The position numbers and the translations under genes are program-made. DNA of 59,639 nt from Leisingera sp. ANG-Vp (GTDB taxonomy: Bacteria > Pseudomonadota > Alphaproteobacteria > Rhodobacterales > Rhodobacteraceae), in assembly GCF_000813725.1 (NCBI RefSeq), contig NZ_JWLD01000084.1, forward strand, positions 1 to 59,639. Reading direction: 5' to 3'. A model generated the notes under the pieces. The model was not told the DNA's origin, did no database searches, and saw only the letters and a program-made list of their open reading frames with translations. This document shows, piece by piece, positions 25,312 to 49,892 of the stretch. How positions within the stretch are numbered: the stretch's first letter is position 1; every line of letters starts with the position of its first letter.

Positions 25312-25434
25312 TTGTGCATACTCTCAATGGACGCGGAGCAGTCCTCAATCTTCTTTTCTTCAGCCCGGCGGTACCGGCAGGCGCTTTCGCGCCCGCCCAG
25401 CCAGCCGCGCCCCTCAGCTTTGATACCGCGAGGT

Positions 25435-26415: not shown

Positions 26416-26428
26416 TCGGGGTCTCCTT

Positions 26429-27283
26429 TTACTGAACCGGGAAGATCACGTTGGTCTGGCCGGTGCCGGAACTGGGGAAATACTCGGTGATCACTTCGCA
26501 AGGGGCGGTGTAGCTGTCCCAGCCAAGCGCACCATATAGCATGGCGGTGTCGTGCATGGAGCCTTCGCCGCAGCAGAAGTCGGCGTATTCGCCCAGCATT
26601 TTGAGGAAGGTGGCATGGTCGCCCTTCTGCCACAGCTCCAGCACCCGCAGGTCCATCTGGCGGTTGAACTCGGAACTGATGGTGAAGGTGCCGTTGTTGG
26701 CGGCATAGTCCTTGTTCGCCCAGATCTTGTGGCTGAGCGAACCTGAGGCGACCAGCAGCACCTTGCTATCTGAGGCCTCGACTGCCGCGCGGATGGCTTC
26801 GCCGATCACCCGGCTTTCGCCGTGATCGTGGACGGTGCACCAGGCGGCAATGGACACCACCTTGAAATCGCCCTCGCGGCTCATGAAACGCATAGGAACC
26901 AGCGTGCCGTATTCCAATTCCAGCGAGTCGATCTGATGCGACAGGGTATAGACGCCTTTGTCCGAGGCCGCCGCCGCGATGGCGTCGCCAAGGTCCGGAT
27001 TGCCTTCGTATTCATAGGGCAGGTTCTGGATGAACTGCGGGAATTCGTTGGAGGTGAACAGCCCCTTGAAGCGGCGGTTGGCGTTGATGTGGAAACCTGC
27101 GTTGATCACCCAGTGAGTGTCGCAGATCACGATGGTATCGGCGCCGAGTTCCTTGGCGCGGCGGGCGATTTCCCGGTGGCCGTCGATGGCGGGCTTGCGG
27201 GCGCCCTCCAGCCGGCCGGGCTGTTCCGACATCAGCATGGTGGGCACATGGGTGCATTTGGCGGCGAGAACGATTTCTCCCAT
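26429..27283 (-). CDS. hpaD: 3,4-dihydroxyphenylacetate 2,3-dioxygenase, class III extradiol (LigB type)
   Basis: 284 aa of the LigB superfamily. N-terminal AAKCTHVPTMLMSE supplies one metal His, VICDTHWVINAGFH the next, and VASGSLSHKIW and GEGSMHDTAMLYGAL are further conserved blocks. E. coli-type HpaD belongs to this class. It carries out the same ring cleavage as the neighbouring class I enzyme. It follows hpaE by 39 bases and precedes the class I gene by 13. Confidence 0.9.
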   Translation of the reverse strand: MGEIVLAAKCTHVPTMLMSEQPGRLEGARKPAIDGHREIARRAKELGADTIVICDTHWVINAGFHINANRRFKGLFTSNEFPQFIQNLPYEYEGNPDLGDAIAAAASDKGVYTLSHQIDSLELEYGTLVPMRFMSREGDFKVVSIAAWCTVHDHGESRVIGEAIRAAVEASDSKVLLVASGSLSHKIWANKDYAANNGTFTISSEFNRQMDLRVLELWQKGDHATFLKMLGEYADFCCGEGSMHDTAMLYGALGWDSYTAPCEVITEYFPSSGTGQTNVIFPVQ

Positions 27284-27322
27284 GGTCTTCTCCTCAAAGA
27301 CTGGTTGCGCGTTTCCTTGAGG

Positions 27323-28834
27323 TCAGGCGCCGAGGCGCGGGATCTTGTGCTGGCCCAGGGCAAAGCCGACGTGTTTCTGCTCCATGTAGAACTCGAAAGA
27401 CCAGTCGCCGCCGTCGCGGCCGATGCCGCTGGCCTTGACCCCGCCAAAGGGCGTGGGCAGGTGGCGGACGTTTTCCGAGTTCACCCAGATCATCCCGGCT
27501 TCGAGATGGTTGGTGAAGCGCAGGGCGCGGGTCAGGTCATTGGTCCAGACGTAACCGGTGAGACCGTATTGGGTGTCATTGGCCAATGTTAGAGCCTCAT
27601 CCTCGTCCTTGAAACGTATTGCGGTGAGGACGGGGCCGAAGATTTCCTCCTGCGCGATGGTCATATCGTTGGCGGCATTGGTGAACAGCGTCGGGCGGAC
27701 GAACCAGCCCTTTTCGCCCTCGCGGCGCCCGCCCGCGGCGATGGTGGCGCCGTCCTGCTTTGCGGTCTCGAAATAGGAGGTGACCTTGTCGAAATGCACC
27801 TTGTGGATCAGCGGGCCGACCTCAGTGGCCGGGTCCAGCGGGTGGCCGACCTTGATGTTATTGACGCGCTCGATCAGCTTGGCTTCGAAGCTGTCCGCGA
27901 TGCTCTCCTGCACCAGCAGGCGCGAGGAGGAGGTGCAGCGTTCGCCGTTCAGCGAATAGATCATGAAGATCGCGGCATCCAGCGCGCGGTCGAGGTCGGC
28001 GTCGTCAAACACTACAACCGGATTCTTGCCGCCCAGTTCGAAATGCACCCGTTTCAGGGTGTCGGCGCCTTGTTTCATGATCATCGAGCCGGTCTTGCTT
28101 TCGCCGACAAAGGCGATGGCCTTGATGTCGGGATGTTCGGTGAGGGCCTTGCCGGCGTCCTCGCCAAAACCGTTCACCAGGTTCCAGACACCGGCGGGCA
28201 GGCCGGCCTCATGGGCGATTTCGGCCAGGATGCGGGCGGTGAGGGGGGAGAATTCGGCCGGTTTGTGGACCACGGTGCAGCCTGCGGCGAGCGCGGGGGC
28301 GATCTTCCAGGTCGACAGCATGAAAGGCGTGTTCCAGGGGGTGATCACGCCCACCGGGCCGATTGGTACCCGGGTGGTCACATTCATCAGCGTCGGCGAC
28401 TGCAGCTGCTGGCCGTCGCGGGCCGAGGTGGCCTTGTCCGCAAAGAAACGGAAGTTTTCGGCGCCGCGCAGCGCCGCCTTGGACATGAAGCGCAGGGCCT
28501 GCCCGGTGTCCCAGCATTCGCACAGCGCGATTTCCTCGGCGCGTTCGACGATCAGGTCGGCGATGCGGTTGAGGATCTTCTTGCGCTCCAGCGCCGGCAT
28601 GTCGCGCCATGCCGGGAAGGCTGCCTTGGCGGCGGCAGCCGCGGCGTCGATGTCTTCGCTGCCGCCTTTGGAGACGGCGCATATTGTGCTCTCATCCACC
28701 GGCGAAGATGTTTCGAACGTGGCGCCGGAGGCCGCAGGGCGGCTTTCGCCGCCGATCAGGTTCAGGATACCGGCTTCGCGGAACCGGGTCAGGTGGCTGT
28801 TCAGCGTTTCGATGTTGGTGGTCAGGTCGCTCAT
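27323..28834 (-). CDS. hpaE: 5-carboxymethyl-2-hydroxymuconate semialdehyde dehydrogenase
   Basis: 503-aa NAD-dependent aldehyde dehydrogenase. N168 in ITPWNTPFML, E266 in VHFELGGKNP and catalytic C300 in NGERCTSSSR are present. Oxidises the ring-cleavage semialdehyde to the carboxylate. The start at 28834 (MSDLTTNIETLN) is chosen over the upstream ATG at 28876, which lies inside hpaF: 28834 overlaps the hpaF stop as TGATG and the family begins there. Confidence 0.95.
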   Translation of the reverse strand: MSDLTTNIETLNSHLTRFREAGILNLIGGESRPAASGATFETSSPVDESTICAVSKGGSEDIDAAAAAAKAAFPAWRDMPALERKKILNRIADLIVERAEEIALCECWDTGQALRFMSKAALRGAENFRFFADKATSARDGQQLQSPTLMNVTTRVPIGPVGVITPWNTPFMLSTWKIAPALAAGCTVVHKPAEFSPLTARILAEIAHEAGLPAGVWNLVNGFGEDAGKALTEHPDIKAIAFVGESKTGSMIMKQGADTLKRVHFELGGKNPVVVFDDADLDRALDAAIFMIYSLNGERCTSSSRLLVQESIADSFEAKLIERVNNIKVGHPLDPATEVGPLIHKVHFDKVTSYFETAKQDGATIAAGGRREGEKGWFVRPTLFTNAANDMTIAQEEIFGPVLTAIRFKDEDEALTLANDTQYGLTGYVWTNDLTRALRFTNHLEAGMIWVNSENVRHLPTPFGGVKASGIGRDGGDWSFEFYMEQKHVGFALGQHKIPRLGA

Positions 28835-29226
28835 CACTGGTCCGCCTTCTGCATGTGGTCGCGGATGGTGCCGCATTTCGGGGAAAGCTCGGGGTCGATG
28901 TCGCGCATCTCCAGCGAGAGCGCGATGGAGTGCTGCTGCATGGCCGGCTCAAGGAAAGATTGGGCCGCATCGAACACCGCCTGGGCGGCGCGCTTGCGGG
29001 TGTCCAGGTCCCGGCCGGCGCGCAGCCGCACCGAGATGTCGATATAGCCGTGCTGCGGATTGCCGTCGGCAATCGAGACATGATTGGCCGCAAAGGCCCG
29101 CACCCGGATACCCGCGAGGGGAAACACGCCGGTGGCCGCTGCTGCCTGCCGCAAATAGCTGCAAAGCGCGGCGATATCGGTGCGCTCCTCCATGTTGGCT
29201 GAGTAGTCCAGCGTGATGTGCGGCAT
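28834..29226 (-). CDS. hpaF: 5-carboxymethyl-2-hydroxymuconate delta-isomerase
   Basis: 130 aa starting MPHITLDYSANMEERTD; the catalytic Pro directly after the initiator Met is the hallmark of the CHMI/tautomerase family. It isomerises 5-carboxymethyl-2-hydroxymuconate. The start at 29226 is preferred over 29265 because of this N-terminal Pro and the GAGAGG 10 bases ahead. It is the first gene of the hpa operon, and hpaR is divergent. Confidence 0.93.
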   Translation of the reverse strand: MPHITLDYSANMEERTDIAALCSYLRQAAAATGVFPLAGIRVRAFAANHVSIADGNPQHGYIDISVRLRAGRDLDTRKRAAQAVFDAAQSFLEPAMQQHSIALSLEMRDIDPELSPKCGTIRDHMQKADQ

Positions 29227-37292: not shown

Positions 37293-38297
37293 TCAGGCCG
37301 AGGGGATCGGCCGGTTGTCCTGGACCCGGAACAGGTTCACCTTGCGGCGTTCCTCCTGCGGGGTGACGCCGAAGCTTTCGCGGTAGTGCTGCGACAGGGT
37401 CGAGGAGGTGGCGTAGCCCACCGCGTTGGCGATCGAGGTGATCGAGTCGCGGGAGTACATCACCAGCTGCCGCGCCGCGTTCATCCGCAGGGTGCGGTAG
37501 TAGATCGCCGGGCTTTGGCCGGTGGCGGACTTGAAGCTGCGCTCCAGCTGGCGCGGCGAGACGCCGATTGTGCTGGCGGCATCGCGGATCGAAACCGGGT
37601 GTTCCAGATTGTCGGCAAAGAGCTCAACAGCCTTGGCGACCGGTGGCGGCAGGCTGTCGGCGGTGCTGTCGGTCTTGAAGGCGGGGATCTTCTGGCGCAC
37701 GCCCTCGGCGCGGACCATCGGATGCTGGAACCAGCAGGCGACCTCGGTCATCACCGCATCGCCCAGGGCCTGTTCGATCAGCTTCAATGACAGGTCGAAC
37801 ATCGCCGCGGCGCCGCTGGCGGTGTACCGGCGGCGGTCCAGCACGATCACGTCGTCAACGGTGGCCAGTGAGGGGAACTCGGCGGTGAAAGCGGCCTTGT
37901 AGCACCAGTGTACCGAGCAGCTGTGGCCGTCCAGCAGGCCGGAACGGGCCAGCGGGAACACCCCGCCTGATACGGCGCCCATCTTGGTGCCGTGGCGGGC
38001 CAGGTGGCGCAGCTTGCCGTTGGAGGCCTTGGGGTCGTCGAACTTGCCTTGCGGGCTGGACAGCAGGAACAGGGTGTCGATCTCTTCGGCCTGATCCAGC
38101 GAGCAGTCCGGCTGGAAAGCCACATTGGCGGAGGCATTCACGCTGGCGCCGGCCTCGGACACAAGTTTCCATCGGAAGGTTTCGGTGCCGGCAATTTCAT
38201 TTGCCGCACGCAGGGGTTCGATGGCCGAGGTCAGGCAGGCCATTGGAAAGCCGGGAAAAATCAGGAAGCCGAGAGTCATGTTATTGCCGCGCTGCAT
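37293..38297 (-). CDS. GlxA-family AraC-type regulator (DJ-1/PfpI + HTH)
   Basis: 334 aa. N-terminal DJ-1/PfpI-like domain (LGFLIFPGFPMACLTSAIEPLR; VFPLARSGLLDGHSCSVHW) of about 200 residues, then an AraC HTH domain (DAASTIGVSPRQLERSFKSA and VGYATSSTLSQHYRESFGVTP). Members include GbdR and SouR, which sense glycine betaine, dimethylglycine or sarcosine breakdown products. An amine-related role here is inference from family and location. An in-frame ATG at 38279 (MTLGFLIFPGF) is an equally good start. Confidence 0.9.
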   Translation of the reverse strand: MQRGNNMTLGFLIFPGFPMACLTSAIEPLRAANEIAGTETFRWKLVSEAGASVNASANVAFQPDCSLDQAEEIDTLFLLSSPQGKFDDPKASNGKLRHLARHGTKMGAVSGGVFPLARSGLLDGHSCSVHWCYKAAFTAEFPSLATVDDVIVLDRRRYTASGAAAMFDLSLKLIEQALGDAVMTEVACWFQHPMVRAEGVRQKIPAFKTDSTADSLPPPVAKAVELFADNLEHPVSIRDAASTIGVSPRQLERSFKSATGQSPAIYYRTLRMNAARQLVMYSRDSITSIANAVGYATSSTLSQHYRESFGVTPQEERRKVNLFRVQDNRPIPSA

Positions 38298-38346
38298 GAG
38301 GTGGAGTTTAGCTTGCGAATGAGGATTCGCACAGCAGCGAAGGGGT

Positions 38347-38380
38347 GCCTGCGCCGTACAGGAAGGAAAACGGCGCAGGC
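38347..38380. terminator. Hairpin downstream of tmm
   Basis: Perfect 11-bp stem GCCTGCGCCGT / ACGGCGCAGGC with a 12-base loop, 21 bases after the tmm stop on the minus strand. No T-run follows. Confidence 0.5.
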
Positions 38381-38400
38381 GATCTGCCGGGGACGGGTCC

Positions 38401-39747
38401 CTAGTTCTGCAGATAAACTTCGAGGGTGTCGTCCAGGGCGTCCTTCCACGGGGTGTGGTGCACGGGCGCCATGGTGCCGGTGATGACCGATTTGTAGGAG
38501 TTGTTGCGGAAGGCCATGATGTCCTCCGCCTTGTGCCCCTTCCACTCGTAGAAGGCCTGGCAGGCGCCGGCCACGTCGAAGGTAGGGTAGTCGGTCTCTT
38601 CGATCAGCTCCAGCACATAGTCGCCCTGGTATTTGATCGCGTATTTGACGTCCGGTGAGGCTTCTTCGCGCTCTTCGCGCTCTTTGACGTCGGCCAGCAG
38701 GGTCTCTTTGTCTGCCGGGATCTCGATCTTGCCCATGATCGCATCGCGGACCCACCAGGCCTGCGCGTCGAACATGTTGAAGGTGAACCACTGGTCCTGC
38801 ATGCCCAGATAGAACATCTTGGGGTTATGGGCATAGACCACGCCTTTGTAGAGGTCGGCAGTGGCCAGGCGGTTGGCGGTCTTCAGGCGCAGATCGTCCG
38901 GCAGGAAGTTGAAGTAGTGCTTGTAGCCGGTGCAGAGGATGATTGCGTCGACCTCTTTCTGGGTGCCATCGGCAAAGGTGGCGGTGTTGCCGCTGACCGA
39001 CTCCAGCGCGGGCACTTCGTCCCAGTTCTCCGGCCATTTGAAGCCCATCGGCTCGCTACGGTAGGAGGTGGTGATCGATTTGGCGCCGTATTTCCAGCAC
39101 TGGGAGCCGATGTCTTCGGCCGAGTAGGAGGCGCCGAGGATCAGGATGTCCTTGCCGGCGAATTCGCGGGCGTCGCGGAAGTCATGGGCGTGCAGCACGC
39201 GGCCGTTGAAGGTGTCGAAGCCGGGGTAGAACGGCACGTTCGGGGTCGAGAAGTGGCCCGAGGCGCAGATCACGTGGTCGAAATCTTCCTTGTAGGTGCT
39301 GTCCTTGGAGTGGTCATGGACGGTGATGGTGAAATTGCCCGCGCCCTCGTTGTACTCCACCCAGCGGATGGCTGAGTTGAAGCGGATCCACTTGCGCACG
39401 TTGGCCTTTTTCACCCGGCCTTCGATGTAGTCGAACAGCACGGCGCGCGGCGGGTAGGATGCGATCTGCTTGCCGAAATGCTCCTCGAAGGAATAGTCGG
39501 CAAATTCCAGGCCCTCCTTGGGGCCGTTGGACCACAGGTAGCGGTACATCGAGCAGTGCACCGGTTCGCCGTTTTCATCCAGGCCGGTGCGCCAGGTGTA
39601 ATTCCACAGGCCGCCCCAGTTGTCCTGCTTCTCGAAGCAGACGATCTCGGGGATCTCTTCCCCTTTGTTGGCGGCGGACTGGAATGCACGCAGCTGCGCC
39701 AGGCCGGAGGGGCCGGCGCCGATGATGGCAATGCGTTTCTTGGTCAT
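38401..39747 (-). CDS. tmm: Trimethylamine monooxygenase (class B flavin monooxygenase)
   Basis: 448 aa starting [20 protein letters not shown], with FAD motif GAGPSG at 10-15, NADPH motif [20 protein letters not shown] near 198-217 and FMO-type [14 protein letters not shown]. Blocks such as [20 protein letters not shown] and [18 protein letters not shown] match marine bacterial Tmm. The enzyme oxidises trimethylamine to TMAO with NADPH and O2 in the cytoplasm. The in-frame ATG at 39834 is rejected because GGGAGAGCC precedes 39747 and the family starts there. Two palindromes of the tmm/dmmD type lie immediately upstream. Confidence 0.92.
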
Positions 39748-39758
39748 GTGGCTCTCCC

Positions 39759-39774
39759 ATTGGTTCAGACCAAT
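39759..39774. promoter_or_regulatory. Palindromic operator, tmm site 1 (ATTGGT-N4-ACCAAT)
   Basis: ATTGGTTCAGACCAAT is a perfect 6-4-6 inverted repeat 12 bases upstream of the tmm start. It fits the size and symmetry of GntR/FadR-type (FCD) operators, and a GntR gene lies 1.5 kb away. A near-copy is found upstream of dmmD. Confidence 0.7.
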
Positions 39775-39790
39775 GTATTTATTTGGTTCA

Positions 39791-39806
39791 TTTGGTCTGA
39801 TCCAAA
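39791..39806. promoter_or_regulatory. Palindromic operator, tmm site 2 (TTTGGT-N4-TCCAAA)
   Basis: TTTGGTCTGATCCAAA, one mismatch in the arms; its centre is 32 bp from that of site 1, about three helix turns. It lies in the shared region between tmm (minus) and the binding-protein gene (plus). Confidence 0.6.
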
Positions 39807-39909
39807 TAGGTCCAAATTTGCGCCGGTAAGTCAACCAATTTTCATTGGAGGAATAAGATTCTTCTCAATTGGACTGGAAGCGCGCAAAATTATTGTTAGG
39901 ATTCAAACC

Positions 39910-41211
39910 ATGAAGACGACGAGTTTTGCGCATCAACTGACCGCGCGCGCGGCGCTGCCCCGGTTGTCCGTAGGGATGACAGAATCAGTGAATATAGGCT
40001 TTTTAGGCCCGCTTTCAGGGCGGGTGGAGAGCTGGGGGCTGCCCGGATTGAACGGTTGCCGGATCTGGGAGGACGGGCTGAACAAGGCCGGCGGGGTGCT
40101 GGTTGGCGGCCGCCGATACCCGATTCGAATCCATTCCTACGATTGCGGCTACAACCCTGACCGGGCGCTGGAAGGCGCGGTGGAACTGGTACAGAAGCAT
40201 AACGTTAAGCTGATGCTGATGCTGGGCGGAGACACATTCGCCCCGGTGCAGGACTTCCTGATGCGCAACAAGGTGCTGACCTCGACCCTGCTGCCCACCG
40301 ATCTGTCGCCGGATACGCCCTATCTTATCGCGCCCAGTGAAGCGCACCCGATCCAGAATGTGACCGGCGTCGCCTGGCTGGCCGAGAACCGGCCGGAGCT
40401 GAAAACCGTCGCTTTGTGCAGTCAGATGGACCTGCTGGGGCTGCCGACGCAGGCGGTTTACCGGGCGGCGTTCAAAGCGGCGGGCAAGAAGATCCTGAGG
40501 GAAGTGCAGTATGATGCATGCTCAATGGACCCAGGGCCGGTGGTGGATCCGATGCTGGAAAGCGGCGCCGATATCCTGTGCTGGTGCTCATCCTACACAC
40601 CGATGGTGCATGCGATGACCGAATACGCCTATGCCAAAGGGTTCAAGGGGCAGATCATCAGCTGCACCATGGATGGCTACGGCAAGCTGGTGGAGAAGAC
40701 CTCGGAAGAATTCATGGAGGGGGTTCTGTTCCAGTTCCCGGACTTTGACGATCCGCTGCTGCGGGAGAAAGCGTTCTTCTTCAATCAGCCCCACACGTTC
40801 TATGAAGAATACAACCGCCGCTTCCCAGGAACCTGGTCCGCGGTGAGCTGGGAATATGTGGCGATCCTCGATATCTGGCACAGCGCGGTGGAAAAGGCGG
40901 GCTCGGTCGAGTCCCCGTCGGTTCTGGCAGCGATGAAACAGCTGGGTCATGTCACCCACGCCTTTGGCCACGCGGAATGGTGGGGCGAGGAAATCTTCGG
41001 CATTTCAAACGCTTTGGTGGGGGATTGGCCGGTGGTGACCATCCAGGAAGGCAAGGCGCGGATTGCCGGGTTCGGCTCCATCCCGGGCTGGCTGGCGCAG
41101 CATTCCAACCTTCTGAAGGCGGAAATGGCGGCACTGGGGCAGCTGTGGCACCAGCGGCTGGAAAGCGCGGCGCCCGGCAATGAGGCCAGCGCGCGGGCGG
41201 TCCTGGGTTAA
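39910..41211 (+). CDS. Periplasmic-binding-protein-like protein (Peripla_BP_5/AmiC-FmdD type) without visible export signal
   Basis: 433 aa. VNIGFLGPLSGRVESWGLPG starts the type I binding fold, and EDFMRNK-like MLMLGGDTFAPVQDF, QIISCTMDGYGKLVEKTSEE and LVGDWPVVTIQEGKARI are closely shared with the paralogue at 42423. Its N-terminus (MKTTSFAHQLTARAALPRLSVGM) has no hydrophobic core, Tat or lipoprotein motif, unlike that paralogue. A cytoplasmic ligand sensor like AmiC is one explanation; an internal ATG at 39976 would give an even plainer cytosolic form. It is divergent from tmm and convergent with the GntR gene. Confidence 0.82.
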   Translation: MKTTSFAHQLTARAALPRLSVGMTESVNIGFLGPLSGRVESWGLPGLNGCRIWEDGLNKAGGVLVGGRRYPIRIHSYDCGYNPDRALEGAVELVQKHNVKLMLMLGGDTFAPVQDFLMRNKVLTSTLLPTDLSPDTPYLIAPSEAHPIQNVTGVAWLAENRPELKTVALCSQMDLLGLPTQAVYRAAFKAAGKKILREVQYDACSMDPGPVVDPMLESGADILCWCSSYTPMVHAMTEYAYAKGFKGQIISCTMDGYGKLVEKTSEEFMEGVLFQFPDFDDPLLREKAFFFNQPHTFYEEYNRRFPGTWSAVSWEYVAILDIWHSAVEKAGSVESPSVLAAMKQLGHVTHAFGHAEWWGEEIFGISNALVGDWPVVTIQEGKARIAGFGSIPGWLAQHSNLLKAEMAALGQLWHQRLESAAPGNEASARAVLG

Positions 41212-41217
41212 TCCGGC

Positions 41218-41943
41218 TCAGACTTCCTGCAGCAGCAGTTTCTGCTCGTCGATCAGGTGCAGCTTGATGAATTCCACCGCCGATTCCACATCGCGCGAGG
41301 CGATGGCGTTGAACAGCGTGTTGTAGCGCTTCTGGTAGTCCTGCATCCGCTGCGGCGTCAGGTGGCGGCGGCGCAGGGCGGTGCGGTAGGACAGGCGGCA
41401 GGCCTCGATCGTCAGCTCGTAGCAGGAGTGCAGCAGCGGGTTGCCGGAACCCTCGGCGATCTTGCGGTAGAGATCCTCCTCAGCCTCGATGAACGCATCC
41501 GTGTCGGTGCGCACGGCTTCGATGCGGGAGAGGATTTCGTCCAGCTCTTCGATCTGGCGCGGCGTCATGTTGATAACGGCGAGGCGGATCAGCTCCGGTT
41601 CCAGAATTCCGCGCACCACCAGGTGGTCCAGCGGTGAGACTTCCTTGGCCAAGGTGGAATAAGACGTCTCGGGCTTGGGATCGGAGCGGAATTTCACGAA
41701 ACTGCCAGAACCCGGGCGGCGGTGGATCACGTTTTGCGCAGCCAGAACATCCAGTGCCTCGCGTACAGTATTGCGGGCAACGCCGAGCTCGGACGCCAGG
41801 GTGCGCTCGGATGGCAGCCGGGTGTCGACCGGGTATGTGCCGGATTTGATGCGGGCAAACAAAGTGTCAATCACCACCTGCACGGTGGCGCCCACCGAAT
41901 GGGTGGTCAGGATCTGCGACGTGGTTTCTTCCGCTGAGCTCAT
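41218..41943 (-). CDS. GntR-family regulator, FCD (FadR) subfamily
   Basis: 241 aa starting MSSAEETTSQILTTH. The winged helix reads IKSGTYPVDTRLPSERTLAS and ELGVARNTVREALDVLAAQN, the classic GntR pattern. The C-terminal helical FCD domain (VVRGILEPELIRLAVINMTP and the metal-site His near HSCYELTIEACRLS) usually binds a small carboxylate. The in-frame ATG at 42030 is possible but the earlier 29 residues look unlike the family. It is placed between the two binding-protein genes and is the best candidate to bind the ATTGGT-N4-ACCAAT sites. Confidence 0.92.
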   Translation of the reverse strand: MSSAEETTSQILTTHSVGATVQVVIDTLFARIKSGTYPVDTRLPSERTLASELGVARNTVREALDVLAAQNVIHRRPGSGSFVKFRSDPKPETSYSTLAKEVSPLDHLVVRGILEPELIRLAVINMTPRQIEELDEILSRIEAVRTDTDAFIEAEEDLYRKIAEGSGNPLLHSCYELTIEACRLSYRTALRRRHLTPQRMQDYQKRYNTLFNAIASRDVESAVEFIKLHLIDEQKLLLQEV

Positions 41944-42422
41944 AATCTGGTTTTCCCGGCCGGCTGAGCGGGAGAATCCCCTGCTCCTGATCACTGCAAC
42001 AGGGGTGCCAATACCGGCTTTGGAGGCCATTTTGCAACCATCTGACGCAGCTGTGATTGGCTTTCAGCCTACCGGTTTCTGCGCCAGACAGCAAGAAAGT
42101 TGAGGAAATTGGTTCAGAAATTGGCTTTCTGGTTGATTTGTTAAGGTGAGCGGTAAGGGTATGTTTTAATGCCGTTTTTAATGTGCTTATTGCCGCATTT
42201 GCGCAGCTGTGGTCTGATTTTGGTGCCTTTTCGGTCCTGAAAGTGAAAGAAAATTTCTTGACGGTGAACCATCTCGCTGCCAGCCTTGATCCAGGGTGGG
42301 TCCAATTTGGATCAACTGGTTCAGTGGCGTTGGCCTGAACCCGCGGGTCCCGCAGGAGGGCCTCATCCCGCAGAACACACCGCCGCAAAAACAAACAGGC
42401 GGGTCCAACATGGGAGAAGAAG
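41944..42422. other. Intergenic region between the GntR and ABC transporter genes
   Basis: About 480 bases without an ORF. ATTTGGATCAACTGGT at 42305-42320 and ATTGGTTCAGAAATTGG at 42108-42124 each keep one half of the tmm/dmmD palindrome. A possible promoter is TTGTTA-N16-TATGTT near 42,138. It probably controls both the GntR gene and the transporter operon. Confidence 0.4.
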
Positions 42423-43712
42423 ATGATTTCCAAGATCGTGAAATCGGGGCTGACCCGGAGGACGTTCCTTCATTCGACGGCGGCTGCCGCGATGAGCGCC
42501 GGGCTGCCGGGCACGTCACTGGCGGCGGGCAGCACCATCAAGATCGGCTTTCTGGCGCCTTTGACCGGCGCGGTGGCGGCCTGGGGCAAGCCCGGGCTGG
42601 ACGGCTGCGAGATCTGGGCCGAGAGGGTGAATGCCGCGGGCGGCATCAAGCTGGGCGATGGCAGCCACAATGTCGAGTTCGTGGCCTATGATAACGAATA
42701 CGACCCGGCCAAGGCGCGCACCGGCGCCACCAAGCTGATCCGCGAAGACGGTGTCAGCTTCATCATGATGCTGGGCGGCGACACCTGGCCAGGGGTGCAG
42801 CCGGTGGCGGACAAGACCGGCATGCTGTTTTCAACCCTGCTGCCGTCGGACCTGTCGCCGGATACAAATACGCTGATTGCGCCGGCCGAGGTGCATCCGA
42901 TCTACAATGTGACCGGCGTGGAGTGGCTGGCCGAGAACAGGCCGGAACTGAAAACCGCGGTGATGTGCGCGCAGGACGACGCGCTGGGGCTGCCCTCGGT
43001 CGCGACCTATTTGGCGGCCTTTGAGGCAGCGGGTATCGAGATGCTGGACGCGCCGCTGCTGTTTGACCCGGCGACCACGGATTTTGCACCGGTTGTGACC
43101 CGGCTGATCAGCAAGAACCCGGATATCGTCTGTCTGGACACCTGCTACAGCGACTATGTGCACCCGATTGCCGAGCAGCTGTTCCAGCAGGGGTTCAAGG
43201 GGCAGATCATCTCCTGCACAGCGGATTTCTATGACCAGATGATCGCCAAGACCTCGGAAGAGTTCATGGAGGGCTTTGTCTTCCAGTTCCCGGATTTCGA
43301 CGATCCGGCGCTGAACGGCGATAACATCAATTTCACCGATCCCAATGGTTTCTATGCCGAGTTCAATAAGCGGCACCCGGGCCAATGGGGCGCGGTGAGC
43401 TGGGAATATGCCTCGATCATGGATCTGTGGAAGGCGGCGGCCGAGAAAGCCGGATCGGCCAGCCCGGATGCGGTGGCCGCGGCAATGAAAGAGGGCAAGG
43501 GCAAGCACGCCTTTGGCGATGCCGACTGGTGGGGTACCGAGCTGTTTGGCATCGACAATGCGCTGGTCGGCGACTGGCCGGTGGTGGCGATCGAGGGCGG
43601 CAAGGCCACGATCAAGGAGTTCCGCTCGATCCCGGACTGGTACGCCAAGCATGGCGACCTGCTGGTCAAGCATATGCAAGCCTATGACCAGATGTGGGAT
43701 CAGCGCAGCTGA
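42423..43712 (+). CDS. Substrate-binding protein of HAAT-type ABC transporter, Tat-exported
   Basis: 429 aa. Twin-arginine signal SGLTRRTFLHSTAAAA (RR at 12-13) followed by Ala-rich core and mature start near GSTIKIGFLAPLTG. The Peripla_BP_5 fold is shared with urea/short-chain amide binding proteins (FmdD/UrtA-like). DTCYSDYVHPIAEQLFQQG and GQIISCTADFYDQMIAKTSE match the paralogue at 39910. It starts the operon of two permeases and two ATPases. The ligand is not known; position argues for a methylated amine or product. Confidence 0.92.
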   Translation: MISKIVKSGLTRRTFLHSTAAAAMSAGLPGTSLAAGSTIKIGFLAPLTGAVAAWGKPGLDGCEIWAERVNAAGGIKLGDGSHNVEFVAYDNEYDPAKARTGATKLIREDGVSFIMMLGGDTWPGVQPVADKTGMLFSTLLPSDLSPDTNTLIAPAEVHPIYNVTGVEWLAENRPELKTAVMCAQDDALGLPSVATYLAAFEAAGIEMLDAPLLFDPATTDFAPVVTRLISKNPDIVCLDTCYSDYVHPIAEQLFQQGFKGQIISCTADFYDQMIAKTSEEFMEGFVFQFPDFDDPALNGDNINFTDPNGFYAEFNKRHPGQWGAVSWEYASIMDLWKAAAEKAGSASPDAVAAAMKEGKGKHAFGDADWWGTELFGIDNALVGDWPVVAIEGGKATIKEFRSIPDWYAKHGDLLVKHMQAYDQMWDQRS

Positions 43713-43787
43713 CCTTTCAGGCAGGCAATCAGGCGGTGCGGGGCAAGTTTCCGCGCCGCGGGACCGACTGAAAAAAGAGACAATCCA

Positions 43788-44657
43788 ATGCTGGACCTTC
43801 TGGCGCAGACCGGCCTCAACGCCGTGTATGCTGCGAGCTATATTTCCCTTGTTGCTGTGGGGCTTGTGCTGATTTTCGGTGTCATGGGGGTGATCAACTT
43901 TGCCCATGGCGAACTGTTCATGGCGGGCGCCTATGCGATTGTGGCGCTGTATGCCGGGCTAAATGTGCCGTTCTTTCTGGCCGTGGCGGCGGGGCTCCTG
44001 TTTGTCGGCTGCCTGGGCCTGCTGATGGAGAGGGCGCTGTTCCGGCCGTTGAAGGACAACCCCTTGGGCGGCCTGGTGGCTTCGATCGGGTTCCTGATGA
44101 TCCTGCAGGCGCTGGCGGTGATGGGATTTGGCGTGCGGATGGTGCATATCCCGCCGGTCACGCAGGAGGTGATTGCGTTCTCCGAGAAAGTACGGCTGCC
44201 GGTGGCGCGGCTTTATGTGATCATCGCCGCCATCGTGCTTCTGTCGGCGCTTTGGTACTTTTTGAAACGCACCAAATTCGGCTGGGCTTTGCGCGCCTCG
44301 GCGCAGGACCCGGAGGCTGCGGCGCTGCAGGGGATATCAATCACCCAAACCGCGCGGATTGCCATGTTCATCGGTGCGGGTCTGGCTGGGATTGCCGGGG
44401 CCCTGACCGCGCCGCTGGTCTCGGTCAACCCGCATATGGGCCATTCGGTGATTGTCACCGCCTTTATCGTCATCATCGTCGGCGGGGTCGGCTCGCTGGA
44501 GGGCGCCATCGTCGCCTCGGTTGCCTATGCGCTGGTGCATACATTTGTGACCACCTTCTGGGACGGCGTGCTGGCCGACATCGTCGGGCTGTCGCTGATG
44601 CTGCTGGTGCTGATCGTGAAGCCGACTGGATTGTTTGGGAGTGCGGACCGTGCCTAA
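43788..44657 (+). CDS. ABC transporter permease, LivH type
   Basis: 289 aa, eight or so membrane helices. GVMGVINFAHGELFMAGAYA is the LivH/BraD signature, and ISITQTARIAMFIGAGLAGIAG is the EAA-like region. It pairs with the following LivM-like protein to form the membrane channel. 75 bases separate it from the binding-protein gene. Confidence 0.93.
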   Translation: MLDLLAQTGLNAVYAASYISLVAVGLVLIFGVMGVINFAHGELFMAGAYAIVALYAGLNVPFFLAVAAGLLFVGCLGLLMERALFRPLKDNPLGGLVASIGFLMILQALAVMGFGVRMVHIPPVTQEVIAFSEKVRLPVARLYVIIAAIVLLSALWYFLKRTKFGWALRASAQDPEAAALQGISITQTARIAMFIGAGLAGIAGALTAPLVSVNPHMGHSVIVTAFIVIIVGGVGSLEGAIVASVAYALVHTFVTTFWDGVLADIVGLSLMLLVLIVKPTGLFGSADRA

Positions 44658-45630
44658 GTTCCTGATTTGGATCGCGGCGCTGGCCGCGCTGATCGCCCTG
44701 CCGCATGGGCTCAGCTTCTCGCAGCAGGAAATCCTGGTGTTCCTGACCATCAATGTGCTGCTGGTAGCGAGCTACCGGCTGCTGACGCTGACCGGCGAGT
44801 GGTCGCTGGGGCATGTGGTGATCATGGGGGTGGGGGCTTATAGCTCGGCTCTGCTGACCAAGAAGCTGGGTGTTTACGTGCCGGTGTCAATGCTGCTGGG
44901 CGGGGTCTTTGCCGCATTGATTGCGGTGCTGCTGTCCTTCCCGCTGTTCCGGATGAAGGGGTTCTATTTTCTGATCGGCTCTTTTGCCGCCGGCGAAATC
45001 ATCCGCCTGCTGTGGAAGCGGTTCCGCGATCCCTTTGGCGGCGCGAAGGGGATCAAGGGGATCGACCCGATGCCGGATTTCTCGGTTGGCTTCTATCAGT
45101 TCGATTTCTTCGAGCCGACCTCCTACTACTACTTTGCAGGCGTTGTTGTGGCGGTTTGCCTGTGGATCCTGTGGCGGATCGAGAAGTCGCCGGTTGGCCT
45201 CACCTTCCATGCGGTGCATTGGCAGGACAAGCTGGCGCAGGCCTCGGGGGTGAATGTGCGGGCCTACCGGACGCTGGCCTTTGCCATTGCCTCGGGCTTT
45301 GCCGGCATTTCCGGCGCGCTGCTGGCGCATTACGTGGGCACCATCAATCCCAACGCCTTTGACATCGACCTGATGGTCTTCGTGCTGACCTGGGCAATTG
45401 TCGGCGGCACCGCGACCTTTTATGGGCCGATCCTGGGCTGTGTGGTGCTGACCGTCATCAACGAGGTTGTGCTGCGCGAGCTGGGGCTCGAGCAGATGCG
45501 GCCGCTGATCTATGGCGCCATCATGATCCTGTCGATCCTGTTCCTGCCCAATGGGTTGGAAAGCATCGTGCAGAAATTCACTCAAAGACGTGCCTCGAAC
45601 GGCGCGCCGGAACGGAGCCCGGCAGAATGA
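44650..45630 (+). CDS. ABC transporter permease, LivM type
   Basis: 326 aa. Starts VPKFLIWIAALAALIALPHG from the GTG at 44650, chosen because GGGAG is 8 bases in front; TTG at 44635 and GTG at 44641 are alternatives. SLGHVVIMGVGAYSSALLTK and GVNVRAYRTLAFAIASGFAG are the LivM signatures. It overlaps the LivH-type gene by 8 bases and the following ATPase gene by 4, so it is translationally coupled. Confidence 0.92.
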   Translation: MPKFLIWIAALAALIALPHGLSFSQQEILVFLTINVLLVASYRLLTLTGEWSLGHVVIMGVGAYSSALLTKKLGVYVPVSMLLGGVFAALIAVLLSFPLFRMKGFYFLIGSFAAGEIIRLLWKRFRDPFGGAKGIKGIDPMPDFSVGFYQFDFFEPTSYYYFAGVVVAVCLWILWRIEKSPVGLTFHAVHWQDKLAQASGVNVRAYRTLAFAIASGFAGISGALLAHYVGTINPNAFDIDLMVFVLTWAIVGGTATFYGPILGCVVLTVINEVVLRELGLEQMRPLIYGAIMILSILFLPNGLESIVQKFTQRRASNGAPERSPAE

Positions 45631-46394
45631 CCGATTTTCTCGAAGTCAAAGACCTGACCATGCGGTTTGGCGGCCTGGTGGCAGTAGACAGCCTGTCGTT
45701 CAAGGTGGCGCATGGCTCGATCCATGGTCTGATAGGTCCGAACGGAGCGGGCAAGACCACAACGTTCAACATGATCTCAGGCTTTTACACGCCGACCTCG
45801 GGGCAGGTGCTGCTGCGGGGCGAGGATATATCCGGCCTGCAGATGCATGAGGTGGCCCGGCGCGGAGTTGTGCGGACGTTCCAGCATTCCACTCTGTTTG
45901 CCGAACTGACCGTGCTGGAGAATGCGCTGGTCGGCACCCATATGCCGTTCCGCCCCAACATCTTTGCCGCGATCATCGGCTGGGACAAGGAGGACCGCAG
46001 CGGCGCCGAGGCGCGTGCCAAGGAAGCATTGGAGTTCTTTGGCCTGGATCACGTGATGCACGAGCGGGCGGGTGATCTGTCCCATGGGCATCAGCGGGCA
46101 CTGGGCATGGCGGTGGCTTATGCCAGCCACCCGGATGTGGTCCTGCTGGACGAGCCGTTCACCGGTATGAACCCGGAAGAGACGCGGCAGATGATGGATC
46201 TGATGGAGCGGCTTAAGGCCGACGGGATCACCATCCTGATCGTCGAGCATGACATGCAGGCGATCATGGGGCTGTGCGACAACATCACCTGCATGAGTTT
46301 TGGCAAATTCCTGGCTGAAGGCGGCCCGCATGAGATCCGCAACCATCCGGCGGTGATCGAGGCTTACCTGGGAGGCGCGCGCCATGTTGCTTGA
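45627..46394 (+). CDS. ABC transporter ATP-binding protein, LivG type
   Basis: 255 aa. Walker A GPNGAGKTTTFNMISGF, signature LSHGHQRALGMAVAYAS (a His replaces the usual Gly after LS), Walker B VVLLDEPFTGMNPEE and H-loop LIVEHDMQAIMGLCD. The C-terminal LivG extension is present. Start overlaps the permease stop by four bases. Confidence 0.93.
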   Translation: MTDFLEVKDLTMRFGGLVAVDSLSFKVAHGSIHGLIGPNGAGKTTTFNMISGFYTPTSGQVLLRGEDISGLQMHEVARRGVVRTFQHSTLFAELTVLENALVGTHMPFRPNIFAAIIGWDKEDRSGAEARAKEALEFFGLDHVMHERAGDLSHGHQRALGMAVAYASHPDVVLLDEPFTGMNPEETRQMMDLMERLKADGITILIVEHDMQAIMGLCDNITCMSFGKFLAEGGPHEIRNHPAVIEAYLGGARHVA

Positions 46395-47091
46395 GATGAA
46401 GAACATCGCCGTCAACTACGGCAAGATCAACGCAATCCGGAACATCTCGGTTGCGGTGCCGGAGGGCAAGATCGTCACCATCATCGGCGGCAACGGCGCG
46501 GGCAAGACCACTACGCTGCGGGCGATGTCGGGGATGCTGCCGATCACTGCGGGCGAAATCACCTTCGAGGGCAAGCGGATCGACCATCTGCCCGCGTATA
46601 AGGTGGTGGCCAACGGTATCGCCCATGTGCCGGAAGGGCGGCGGATTTTCCCCGACATGACGGTCGAGGAAAACCTGCGCACCGGGGCGTTTCTGCGCAA
46701 GGACAAGGACGCGGTGGAGGAGGACCTGGAAGATGTCTTCACCCGCTTCCCGCGGCTGCGCGAACGGCGCACCCAGATGGCCAAGACGATGTCGGGCGGC
46801 GAACAGCAGATGCTGGCCATCGGCCGCGCGCTGATGTCCAAGCCGCGGCTTCTCTTGATGGATGAACCCTCGATGGGGCTGGCGCCGGTGATTGTCGAGG
46901 AAATCGCCCAGATCGTTGAGGAGATCAACGCCAACGGGCTGTCGGTCGTCTTGGTCGAGCAGAATGCCGAGCTGGCGCTGGAACTGGCTGACTACGCCTA
47001 TGTCCTGGAAACCGGAAATGCAGCAATGGAGGGACCTGCAGATGAGCTTCACGGAAACGAACACGTCCGCGCCGCGTATCTGGGGCTTTAA
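46384..47091 (+). CDS. ABC transporter ATP-binding protein, LivF type
   Basis: 235 aa. Walker A GGNGAGKTTTLRAMSG, signature MSGGEQQMLAIGRALMS, Walker B LLLMDEPSMGLAPVIVEEI and H-loop replaced by VEQNAELALELAD, as usual for LivF. It overlaps the LivG-type gene by 11 bases and the next small gene by 50. Confidence 0.94.
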   Translation: MLLEMKNIAVNYGKINAIRNISVAVPEGKIVTIIGGNGAGKTTTLRAMSGMLPITAGEITFEGKRIDHLPAYKVVANGIAHVPEGRRIFPDMTVEENLRTGAFLRKDKDAVEEDLEDVFTRFPRLRERRTQMAKTMSGGEQQMLAIGRALMSKPRLLLMDEPSMGLAPVIVEEIAQIVEEINANGLSVVLVEQNAELALELADYAYVLETGNAAMEGPADELHGNEHVRAAYLGL

Positions 47092-47650
47092 GCGGGACAC
47101 GGAAATGAAGGTGGCGCGCGCGGCTGGCTGGTCCCGCGCCGACCTGATCTGGGAGCGGTTGATGGAGCGGGCGCTGGCAGAGGCTGCGGCGGGGCATGTA
47201 CGAAAGGCGATGCGCCTGTTCCGGCTGGCTGGCCTGCTGGCGCGGATTGCCTTTCCTGGCGCAGACTTGCGGCAGGCCACAGCCCCCGCCAATCTGGCGG
47301 TGCTGGCGTTCCGCTCGGGGGCGCTGGAGGAGGCTGAGAAGCTGCAAGCCCGCGCGTTGCGGGTTTGGAGCGGCGCCTCGGAGCAAGTGGCGGAGATGTT
47401 TATCGCTCCGCGCAGCCGCTCGTCGCTGTTTCATTTGCGTATGGAGGCGCTGCACCGGGAAACCTACCACGGCAATCTCAAAATCAGGATCGGTGCGATT
47501 GCTTCTGAAACGGAAGAGACCCTGCGCAGCCTGACGTCCGGCTGGCCCGTGGGCCACCGTCATGCCAGCCGGTGGCGCGGCGAGAAGCCGGTGGTGTTTG
47601 ATGGCACCCGCAAGGTGCTCGGGGCCTGTCTGCTGCTGCTGGATGACTGA
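47042..47650 (+). CDS. Hypothetical helical protein at the end of the ABC operon (202 aa)
   Basis: Starts MSFTETNTSAPRIWGFKRDT. The ATG at 47042 has GGAGGG 8 bases in front and lies inside livF-like sequence; 47105 (MKVARAAG) is a second choice. The body is helical and tetratricopeptide-like: AAAGHVRKAMRLFRLAGLLA and LAFRSGALEEAEKLQARALR look like helix-turn-helix repeats. No known family was recognised. The 50-base overlap with the ATPase gene implies co-translation. Confidence 0.75.
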   Translation: MSFTETNTSAPRIWGFKRDTEMKVARAAGWSRADLIWERLMERALAEAAAGHVRKAMRLFRLAGLLARIAFPGADLRQATAPANLAVLAFRSGALEEAEKLQARALRVWSGASEQVAEMFIAPRSRSSLFHLRMEALHRETYHGNLKIRIGAIASETEETLRSLTSGWPVGHRHASRWRGEKPVVFDGTRKVLGACLLLLDD

Positions 47651-47680
47651 GACGCTGCGTTTTGCGGCAGCTGGTGCAGG

Positions 47681-47701
47681 CCCGGGGTCCTCGGCCCCGG
47701 G
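47681..47701 (+). terminator. Hairpin after the ABC operon
   Basis: CCCGGGG-TCCTCGG-CCCCGGG followed by TTTCAATG; a likely terminator of the transporter operon. Confidence 0.6.
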
Positions 47702-47880
47702 TTTCAATGTTCCGGGCTGGAGCGGCGGGGCAACAATTTTCTTTCCTGTGACGGTGAGGGCTTGGGAAAAACTGGTAATGGCAGTAAAATAATTTTCGCG
47801 TGGTTTCTTGCGGCCGTAAAAGTTTTTGCGTAATCCCCGCTGCGCGCTTGTCAGAGGCTGTCCATAAGGAAGATAACACA

Positions 47881-48537
47881 GTGGCAAAACCCAAAGACGA
47901 TACCGACGCAGTGGCCAACAATCTTTCGCAAGATCCGCATCGAGTCCGGGATGGCTCGGAAAAAGTTCTGGAAGTGGCCATCGGCCGCGAGGTCCGCTCG
48001 TTCCGGCGTCAGCAGGGGATTACAGTGGCGGACCTGGCCAATCTGACCGGATTGTCGATCGGGATGCTCTCGAAGATCGAGAACGGCAACACCTCGCCGT
48101 CGCTGACAACGCTGCAGCTGCTGGCCAATGCTTTGAGCGTGCCGATCACGTCTTTCTTCCGCCGGTTTGAGGAAACCCGCGAGGCGGTGCATACCAGGTC
48201 GGGCGAGGGGGTGGAGACTGAGCGCGCAGGCACGCGGGCCGGGCATCAGTACCAGCTGCTGGGGCACCTGGGCGCGAATGCGTCGGGCGTTGTTGTCGAA
48301 CCCTATATGATTACCCTGACCGAAGAGTCGGATGTCTTTCCGACCTTCCAGCATGACGGCATCGAGATGCTTTACATGCTGGAAGGCGAGGTCGACTACC
48401 GGCATGGCGACAAGGTGTTTTCCCTGAAGGCCGGGGATACGCTGTTTTTTGACGCTGATGCGCCGCATGGGCCCGAAGGGCTGGTGAAGCTGCCTGCACG
48501 CTATCTGTCGATCATCTCATATCCGCAGTCGAGCTGA
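47881..48537 (+). CDS. XRE-family regulator with C-terminal cupin sensor
   Basis: 218 aa from a GTG start (VAKPKDDTDAVANN) preceded by AAGGAAG. HTH: VADLANLTGLSIGMLSKIEN, GNTSPSLTTLQLLANALSVP. The cupin_2 domain at the C-terminus has FQHDGIEMLYMLEGEVDYRH and LKAGDTLFFDADAPHGPEGL. Such proteins often control amine, polyamine or amino acid catabolism. It is placed between the ABC operon and dmmDABC. Confidence 0.92.
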   Translation: MAKPKDDTDAVANNLSQDPHRVRDGSEKVLEVAIGREVRSFRRQQGITVADLANLTGLSIGMLSKIENGNTSPSLTTLQLLANALSVPITSFFRRFEETREAVHTRSGEGVETERAGTRAGHQYQLLGHLGANASGVVVEPYMITLTEESDVFPTFQHDGIEMLYMLEGEVDYRHGDKVFSLKAGDTLFFDADAPHGPEGLVKLPARYLSIISYPQSS

Positions 48538-48542
48538 GATAT

Positions 48543-48752
48543 GGCGGGAAGCTCCCGCCTGCTTGAAGAACATCTGAAGATGTCCTTGCGCAGTTGGGCG
48601 TAGCGCCGCGCGGTGCGCGGCGCGGTCGTGTATTGCCTTAAGCTTGCTATCTGCCGCCTGCAGCGCGCGAAGCGCGCTGCCCGGCCCAACGCTGCACAGG
48701 GGGCAGGCGCAGCCAGCCGTCTGATGCAGGGGCGGGAGCACCCCCCCCTATA
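48543..48752. repeat. Hairpin-chain element, copy A
   Basis: Fills most of the 311-base gap between the XRE-cupin gene and dmmC. Parts in order: GGCGGGA-AGC-TCCCGCC (48543-48559); AAGAACATC/GATGTCCTT hairpin (48566-48587); CAGTTGGGCGTAG; CGCCGCGC-GGT-GCGCGGCG (48604-48622); GCAGCGCGC-GAA-GCGCGCTGC (48660-48680); CCGGCCCAAC; GGGGCGGGAGCACCCC. It may act as the terminator of the two flanking convergent transcripts. Confidence 0.6.
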
Positions 48753-48848
48753 GGTAAAAAAGAAACTGCCGGAGCGCGAAGCAACGGCAGTCAGTAAGGC
48801 GGGCCTAAGTGACAGGGGGTAGGGACGGCCCGCCAGGTCCGCTCGGGA

Positions 48849-49892
48849 TCAATCGTCGGGCCAGATACCGTCCGAGGTCGGGCTGCCGTCGTCATATTGC
48901 GAGAGCCACTCCACCATCAGCGGGCGGTTGTCGATGAAGCCCTTGTAGGTGGCCAGTTCCTCGGGCAGGTCGCGGATCACCCGGTGCAGGCGGCGGCCCC
49001 ATTTCGGCACTGTCACTAGATCGTTGAAGCTGATCAGGTAGCAGCGGATCGGGAACACCAGCGCGTTGGAGCGCGGCAGGCGGAAGAAGGTCTGCAGCTC
49101 GACCCGCAGGTGCTGCTTCTCGCCGATGTTCTCCATCGTCAGGCCCTGCTTCATCACACCCCATTTGTGGTAGTTCTCGGGCGAGGTATCCAGCAGCGGG
49201 TTGACCGTCATGGTCCAGTTCAGGCGGCGGGCCGGCTGGCCCTGCTGGATGTTCAGCAGGAACTTCAGCGCGCGCACAAAGATGCCCATTTCATGCGCTT
49301 TAGGCACTGGCGCGTGCCATTCAAAGAAGTTCATGCCGATGTCGAAGTCCAGCGACCAGTCGGCCTGGGTGGTGACCATGCCGGCATCCATCCACAGGTT
49401 GTCGTCACGCTGGTCCAGCACCGCGAAATCGCCCTGGGTCTGGCGGGTGATGTATTCCATCGGCCCGTAGGGCAGGGTGCTTTCATCGAGGAAGGTGAAG
49501 GTGTCGTCGATGCCCAGCGGCTTGTTGATCCAGCGCCAGCGGTTGCCGTCCTTGTGCAGTTCAAACAGGTCCGGGTACTCGCGCGCCTTGGCTTCCATGA
49601 TCAGTTCGACCAGATCCCAGCCGGCCAGCGTCATATGCGGAAGCGACTGGCAGCGCAGCGGGTCGTTGGCCAGGACGCGTGCCCGGTCTTTCATTTCCGC
49701 GACATAGTGCTCGTCCACGTCGAAGGTGCGTTCAAACACCGAGCCGGGCCGGTAGGATGTGTGCGGCTCCATGTTCACCGAGTACATGTAGCTGTCTTCG
49801 TGGAACGGGAAGGGGAAGCGTTTGATCGCCCAGTCCGAGTTCTTGAAGGTGAAGTCGCCGTGGAAGGTTTCGTCGTTGAATTGGATCGTCAT
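48849..49892 (-). CDS. dmmC: Dimethylamine monooxygenase subunit DmmC (heme-dependent oxidative N-demethylase, DUF3445)
   Basis: 347 aa, starts MTIQFNDETFHGDF. It belongs to the DUF3445 heme-dependent oxidative N-demethylase family: FPFPFHEDSYMYSVNMEPHT, YITRQTQGDFAVLDQRDD and LRVELQTFFRLPRSNALVFP are family blocks. In the Dmm complex this is the catalytic heme subunit that converts dimethylamine to methylamine and formaldehyde with O2. It is the last gene of dmmDABC, 11 bases after dmmB. Confidence 0.88.
   Translation of the reverse strand: MTIQFNDETFHGDFTFKNSDWAIKRFPFPFHEDSYMYSVNMEPHTSYRPGSVFERTFDVDEHYVAEMKDRARVLANDPLRCQSLPHMTLAGWDLVELIMEAKAREYPDLFELHKDGNRWRWINKPLGIDDTFTFLDESTLPYGPMEYITRQTQGDFAVLDQRDDNLWMDAGMVTTQADWSLDFDIGMNFFEWHAPVPKAHEMGIFVRALKFLLNIQQGQPARRLNWTMTVNPLLDTSPENYHKWGVMKQGLTMENIGEKQHLRVELQTFFRLPRSNALVFPIRCYLISFNDLVTVPKWGRRLHRVIRDLPEELATYKGFIDNRPLMVEWLSQYDDGSPTSDGIWPDD

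Follow-up and report, generated by a model that had tools for sequence, protein, structure and literature searches.

The importers LivKHMGF/LivJ, for branched-chain amino acids, and UrtABCDE, for urea, are ABC transporters with a five-component HAAT architecture (presumably class TC 3.A.1.4), a type I substrate-binding protein (SBP) and LivG/LivF-type ATPases. An operon with this same architecture is found in a 59,639-nucleotide stretch of Leisingera sp. ANG-Vp (contig NZ_JWLD01000084.1 of assembly GCF_000813725.1; the whole stretch is called the window below), but its products differ from Liv and Urt in scoring below the curated cut-offs, in a Tat-type (twin-arginine) signal, in a set of acidic and Trp-rich invariant residues, and in linkage to genes for trimethylamine (TMA) enzymes. 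TmoXWV, the roseobacter importer of trimethylamine N-oxide (TMAO), is likewise an ABC importer, and its SBP gene lies beside tmm in some relatives (e.g. G004, G201, G314); its binding protein, however, belongs to the OpuAC family, and TmoX is encoded separately in the same Leisingera genome. TmaT, the BCCT-family Na+/TMA symporter of Myroides profundi, shares with the window transporter the proposed substrate, which feeds TMA oxidation, but is a single-protein secondary transporter (PMC11708041); the introduction to that paper names only two proteins as implicated in transporting TMA, TmaT itself and the unvalidated MttP. The legend of a supplementary figure showing fhs neighbourhoods, in which tmm, tdm and tmoR are included, mentions a periplasmic binding protein of the HAAT family as uncharacterised (PMC4744692), and an ABC transporter substrate-binding protein recurs in clusters for TMA, dimethylamine (DMA) and monomethylamine (MMA), again according to a figure legend (PMC7574528). 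The portions of the open-access literature covered by our search, which left subscription literature mostly outside, hold no described ABC importer for TMA and no assignment of the window transporter. The architecture is thus a known one, with a substrate class that is probably new.

That the locus encodes a new methylated-amine transporter, which the sequence-only reading had put forward as a real possibility, is well supported by the genomics and is the best reading of it. Sequence and gene context tip the balance slightly towards a HAAT-family ABC importer with TMA, as the trimethylammonium cation, for its main substrate, which would feed trimethylamine monooxygenase (Tmm) and may also accept TMAO or DMA. 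In such a system the Tat-exported SBP would capture TMA in the periplasm and pass it to the two permeases, the two ATPases would drive uptake, and the imported TMA would feed the Tmm encoded alongside.

The linkage to tmm was followed in the best 80 of 415 relatives confirmed in a scan of named genomes, with loci spanning at most 10 kb on either side, and the picture is one of close relatives. The tmm gene lies within the locus in 48 of the 80; in 29 of these the order is tmm, SBP2 (a leaderless SBP paralogue), a GntR-type regulator gene and the SBP gene, in 18 tmm is divergent and next to the SBP gene, and one has another arrangement. It is found elsewhere in the genome for 23 of the remaining 32, such that 71 of the 80 have tmm overall, against a background of 81 among 394 genomes of the window's family. 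Within that family, 12 of the 13 genomes with an SBP of at least 73% identity have tmm (Fisher p 3e-8, uncorrected for kinship), and in a class-wide draw of 367 genomes all eight non-window genomes with an SBP at this level have tmm no more than 500 bases from it, some of these being repeats of named loci (G625 is L078, G813 is L073) and not independent evidence. Linkage to methylated-amine degradation spans several alphaproteobacterial families, in agreement with the sequence-only reading of a transporter wired into the amine island. We note that locus L052, from a record titled Oceanobacillus sp. HTM 045, has an alphaproteobacterial-type transporter, and that its genome (G409) shares tmm coordinates with G004, a member of the window's family; the Oceanobacillus label is probably wrong.

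Tmm and trimethylamine dehydrogenase (TMADH) are unrelated enzymes with TMA as their common substrate, and the genomes without tmm are informative in this respect. No tmm match was found in nine of the 80 genomes (L028, L044, L045, L046, L055, L063, L064, L065 and L086; completeness not stated), and in four of them (L044, L046, L063 and L065) a TMADH gene lies near a transporter whose SBP is 77–83% identical to that of the window. The L046 enzyme matches Methylophilus TMADH (1djn) over its full length with 1301.8 bits, versus 535 for histamine dehydrogenase. The positions of Y60, W264 and W355, the residues that we take to hold TMA in TMADH, are kept in eight of ten transporter-linked TMADH rows (the first position is Ala in L222, and the L044 sequence is truncated at it), or in seven of nine genes, given that L065 and L223 are one genome. 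More distant transporters, 48–63% identical, are also near TMADH in L214, L215, L216, L220 and L222. Four TMADH genomes, one with a close transporter (G405, which is L046) and three with distant ones (G467, G536 and G645), have neither tmm nor a match to TMAO demethylase (Tdm) at 1e-150; G536 has a listed completeness of 100% and consists of 7 contigs. These four genomes yielded no route for TMAO, which argues for TMA. TMADH was searched in 50 of the 80 named genomes, and it also accompanies tmm, with two copies (79% and 64%) in L035, which is G288 by coordinates, and a partial one (64%) in L076; matches of 38–46% are presumably other flavoproteins.

The binding proteins share a distinctive set of residues. 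W54, D143, D186, T266, D268, Y270, W322, W327, E328, W369 and W370 are invariant in all 57 aligned rows of SBP and SBP2, and D120 is kept in 55, whereas among the genome's five other Peripla_BP_6 proteins D120, D186, T266, D268 and Y270 each occur once and the rest never, at 20–30% identity where the alignment is uncertain. Judged from the printed alignment, several of the invariant residues appear to fall at ligand positions of the leucine-binding protein, and the acidic, Trp-rich character of the set would suit a methylammonium cation.

The genome also has the means to handle TMAO separately. Contig C64 encodes a TmoX 80% identical to the Ruegeria pomeroyi chain 4xz6, and the genes after it resemble those for the ATPase and permease of another OpuAC system; this locus (L224:3812-12754) adjoins TorT and TorS genes, both above the TMAO-model cut-offs, as well as a TorR-like regulator (266 bits, cut-off 275), and is predicted to serve TMAO sensing and uptake. 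The window SBP is not TmoX, being of the Peripla_BP_6 rather than the OpuAC family and having no match to the 4xz6 chain at E<=0.001. TmoX is present in 10 of the 13 family genomes with the transporter, and among tmm genomes it occurs in 9 of 12 with the transporter versus 37 of 69 without (p 0.22), with no anticorrelation. The idea, implied by the sequence-only reading, that the transporter stands in for TmoXWV was therefore rejected. SBP2 and TmoX are weakly anticorrelated among tmm genomes (8/23 versus 38/58, p 0.014, uncorrected for kinship). A second Tdm-like gene on contig C46 (G000:C46:11148-13394; L105:6074-8398) scores 1067.7 bits against a cut-off of 1100 and is perhaps a demethylase for another methylated amine; the ABC transporter directly after it is of OpuAC type but distinct from TmoX, with no match to 4xz6 at E<=1e-5. 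The binding protein L090 has its best match in 7yle, presumably of the dimethylsulfoniopropionate binding-protein type, and L089 matched neither 7yle nor 4xz6. In L063, whose genome has TMADH and Tdm and no tmm, a protein near SBP2 (L063:5134-6768), which we take to be of BCCT type, scores 865 bits with the TMAO permease model NF053774 (cut-off 690); by analogy with TmaT, proteins of this type may also carry TMA.

Two elements of the cassette did not figure in the sequence-only reading, namely the SBP2 gene at 39910-41211 and the agreement of the neighbouring GntR gene, in family and position and not by sequence comparison, with published TmoR (PMC13390433). In R. pomeroyi the GntR-type repressor of tmm is TmoR (SPO1553), for which mutants point to DMA as the main effector and TMAO as a minor one, and to no effect of TMA, while binding was measured with the DNA-binding domain alone; where tmoR adjoins tmm, a gene of unknown function usually separates the two (PMC13390433). 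SBP2 orthologues start at a conserved Met, shortly after which comes SSFAHRLAxxSALPRLSVGM or a variant of it in a conserved, non-signal N-terminal tail, and the twin-arginine motif is found in none of 13 SBP2 rows versus 39 of 44 SBP rows, the absence of an export signal being judged by eye and by motif rather than by a signal-peptide program. The SBP2 type forms a separate clade of 15 rows (support 99) in a 73-row tree made by a quick method with midpoint rooting. An SBP2-type match, 46–55% identical to SBP, is found in 24 genomes of the family survey, and in 21 of these, counted by eye from the coordinates, it is within 250 bases of tmm and in the opposite orientation (the exceptions being G275, G064 and G246). 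In L155 (G381:C330:1659-2930) the SBP2 copy beside tmm has one internal TGA.

SBP2 resembles AmiC of Pseudomonas aeruginosa in being of Peripla_BP_6 type, in lacking an export signal and in being encoded beside a regulator, the amiC gene lying beside that of its own regulator. AmiC is also among the fold matches of the paralogue SBP, for which, and not for SBP2, the model was made. The two differ in that the neighbour of SBP2 is a GntR/FCD repressor instead of the antiterminator AmiR, and in the distinct N-terminal tail. SBP2 is a candidate cytoplasmic methylamine sensor and, with the same distinctive residues as the SBP, would report the cytoplasmic amine level to a TmoR-controlled tmm promoter. 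Such a role would assign a purpose to the uncharacterised gene that separates tmm from tmoR, and could account for the response of TmoR to DMA. The fuller proposal, that this is the first ABC-type TMA importer and evolved together with a leaderless SBP copy that is cytoplasmic, binds the same or a neighbouring methylamine and controls TmoR through its conserved N-terminal tail, is possible, if doubtful on present sequence comparisons.

The upstream regions suggest that tmm and the transporter are co-regulated. The motif TTGGTnnnnACCAA is present with at most one mismatch in the tmm/SBP2 gap of 26 of 30 regions (the window and 29 loci; mononucleotide shuffles 0.16), and ACCAATTT-N2..6-AAACTGGT is present upstream of the SBP gene in 19 of 30 regions, with no more than 2 of its 16 positions mismatched (1/19 elsewhere; shuffles 0.05); both motifs were derived from the very sequences used for counting, among which are several near-copies, and the contrast with shuffles is not independent. 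A common operator for tmm and SBP was rejected, with the tmm palindrome upstream of SBP in just 2 of 30 regions at one mismatch or fewer; a separate inverted repeat lies there, with half-sites related to those of the tmm palindrome.

A number of observations weigh against TMA as the main substrate. The transporter is absent from 69 of the 81 tmm genomes and therefore Tmm does not require it, and TMA can pass through membranes as the free base; neither tmm nor a TMADH of at least 50% identity is present in five of the 80 genomes (L028, L045, L055, L064 and L086, of which L045 carries no metagenome-assembled-genome label); and the pocket residues of the SBP are assigned from sequence, not coordinates. 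In addition, Tdm is above its cut-off in three of the four close TMADH genomes (L044, L063 and L065, which are G403, G418 and G420), leaving L046 alone without it, so TMAO could be used there; G737 has Tdm above the cut-off too. The distant transporters of L213 (G709), L217 (G612) and L218 (G521) adjoin Tdm, their genomes having no tmm and no TMADH at 1e-190, and Tdm is above its cut-off in all three, that of L213 resting on the genome-wide Tdm search, as a family scan of the roughly placed L213 stretch gave no match; for this branch TMAO or DMA fits more naturally. The Tdm genes in the close TMADH genomes weaken the case for TMA, and if SBP2 were the sensor for TmoR and shared its ligand with the SBP, the published TmoR effectors would weaken it too, pulling the ligand from TMA towards DMA or TMAO. 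The Tdm neighbours and the minor effect of TMAO on TmoR together speak for a second TMAO importer, feeding Tdm, but we consider this unlikely in view of TmoX, with TorTS, elsewhere in the genome, its presence in most transporter genomes, and the four genomes with TMADH-linked relatives in which no Tdm or tmm was found. The linked routes have DMA as their common product. An importer of DMA, or a broad one that takes up TMA, DMA and MMA equally, would also accord with the rank of DMA as main TmoR effector and with the window's genes for HODM and Dmm reductase, which lie 1.2 kb downstream of the transporter genes; this reading is nonetheless quite unlikely, as HODM or Dmm reductase genes are present in 7 of the 80 loci (L008-L012, L018 and L085) versus 48 for tmm.

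The substrate might instead be urea, a short-chain amide, an amino acid or some other nitrogen compound, with the transporter placed in the island as a general nitrogen supply. This would be consistent with the predicted fold of the SBP, which is equally close to LivK, UrtA and AmiC, and with the best-scoring sequence models for the subunits, which are those of Liv and Urt. Every one of the corresponding NCBIfam cut-offs is failed, however (score/cut-off: UrtA 35.2/492.75, UrtB 198.7/250.3, UrtC 96.7/296.2, UrtD 209.1/304.1, UrtE 230.3/285.8; LivK-type 50.2/477, LivH 109.6/379, LivM 113.7/366, LivG 268.1/362, LivF 266.3/441). The AlphaFold model of the SBP (mean predicted local distance difference test, pLDDT, 86.8) has a type I fold and matches LivK-, UrtA-, aromatic-acid- and AmiC-type proteins with similar scores, and therefore the predicted fold alone does not name the ligand. 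In the printed alignment with the leucine-binding protein, which was read without coordinates, the positions that presumably bind the amino-acid backbone are changed. Genes of hydantoinase and carbamoylase type are common to four loci (L053, L055, L056 and L059), which counts for such a substrate and against TMA; tmm is elsewhere in three of these genomes and not in L055. The flanks of tmm-less loci are mixed, the ten proteins scanned including TMADH, a CCG-domain protein, an amidohydrolase, a peptidase M20, an NMT1-like protein, a P-type ATPase, a Na+/alanine symporter, an RNase, a sigma-54 activator and a phytochrome. TMA enzymes are the commonest neighbours of the transporter (amidases and urease were without a systematic search), and a substrate of this kind is very unlikely. 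Among the substrates listed by the sequence-only reading, TMA is favoured and TMAO and DMA are possible, and no support was found for gamma-glutamyl amides, N-methylglutamate, urea or formamide.

With an importer of TMA as the preferred reading, the features of the locus are collected in Table 1. The cassette reads tmm (leftwards), SBP2 (rightwards), the TmoR-like GntR gene (leftwards) and the transporter operon (rightwards). Open reading frames (ORFs) and Pfam matches agree with the gene set described by the sequence-only reading (an SBP with a Tat signal, two Liv-type permeases, two ATPases and a helical protein), the HAAT label holds by the family matches (a Peripla_BP_6-type SBP, with two BPD_transp_2 permeases and two LivG/LivF-type ATPases in the operon) and by the SBP fold, and tmm is where it was placed, next to the transporter. 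The claim of one coupled operon stands for the overlaps of 8, 4, 11 and 50 bases and not for the SBP-LivH junction, where there is a gap of 75 bases. The SBP, LivH, LivM, LivG and LivF genes are together in 73 of the 80 related loci (contig ends cut some) and the helical protein gene is present in 62, and therefore this is not a chance run of ORFs. The closest SBP of a named relative, among the matches listed, is that of Leisingera sp. ANG-M1, with 98% identity. The twin-arginine motif of the window SBP is LTRRTFLHS, and the five of 44 SBP rows without the RR pattern are three KR variants and two that start past the signal. The helical protein has no Pfam or NCBIfam match, its model has no PDB match at E<=0.001, and its C-terminal half is strongly conserved in 21 aligned rows (RSSLFHLRMEA, then RW.GE.P). 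No Rfam family reaches its gathering score within 38000-49000, and a promoter and terminator scan yielded no more than shuffles.

Table 1. Features of the tmm-transporter region, in window coordinates.
Feature	Coordinates	Strand	Remarks
tmm, trimethylamine monooxygenase	38401..39735	-	NF058570 equivalog 830 bits, cut-off 675; FMO-like
Divergent tmm/SBP2 intergenic region	39736..39909		palindrome TTGGTTCAGACCAA at 39760-39773 and one-mismatch copy at 39792-39805; candidate TmoR operator
SBP2, leaderless SBP paralogue	39910..41211	+	Peripla_BP_6 from 39976; 52% identical to SBP
GntR/FCD regulator, TmoR-like	41218..41943	-	FCD and GntR domains; ORF open to 42030, predicted start ~41943
Inverted repeat TCCAATTTGGATCAACTGGT 5′ of SBP	42301..42320		TTGGT-like half-sites
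SBP, with Tat-type signal	42423..43712	+	429 aa; Peripla_BP_6 172 bits, cut-off 31.7
GC-rich hairpin in SBP-LivH gap	43733..43759	+	predicted fold only, z -1.64; 9/200 shuffles equal, not significant
LivH-type permease	43788..44657	+	BPD_transp_2
LivM-type permease	44650..45630	+	BPD_transp_2; GTG start, alternative TTG at 44635
LivG-type ATPase	45627..46394	+	ABC_tran and BCA_ABC_TP_C
LivF-type ATPase	46384..47091	+	ABC_tran
Helical (TPR-like) protein	47042..47650	+	in 62/80 loci; model pLDDT 83.9

Two apparent features were rejected as antisense images of tmm, namely the conserved neighbour 'u38827' (a plus-strand ORF at 38827-39375) and the long N-terminus that ORF 39478-41211 would add to SBP2. 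Just downstream of tmm, at 37293-38297, is a GlxA/GbdR-like AraC regulator (GbdR 235.7 bits, cut-off 480), a 60% identical copy of which adjoins a TmoV-type gene on C64. Further to the left, at 22236-28876 on the minus strand, are genes for a decarboxylase, an aldehyde dehydrogenase, a glyoxalase-fold dioxygenase and two proteins of FAA hydrolase type (one of them matching weakly), a set that resembles a pathway for homoprotocatechuate or an aromatic amine.

In the sea, TMA is a source of nitrogen and gives rise to climate-relevant amines. In the parts of the literature examined, no gene is assigned to its uptake at low concentration in bacteria with Tmm. Since it accompanies tmm or TMADH across several alphaproteobacterial families, the transporter would be a marker of active methylated-amine scavenging. 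If the proposal for both the transporter and SBP2 is correct, one kind of pocket would serve both the uptake of TMA and the gene control of its oxidation.

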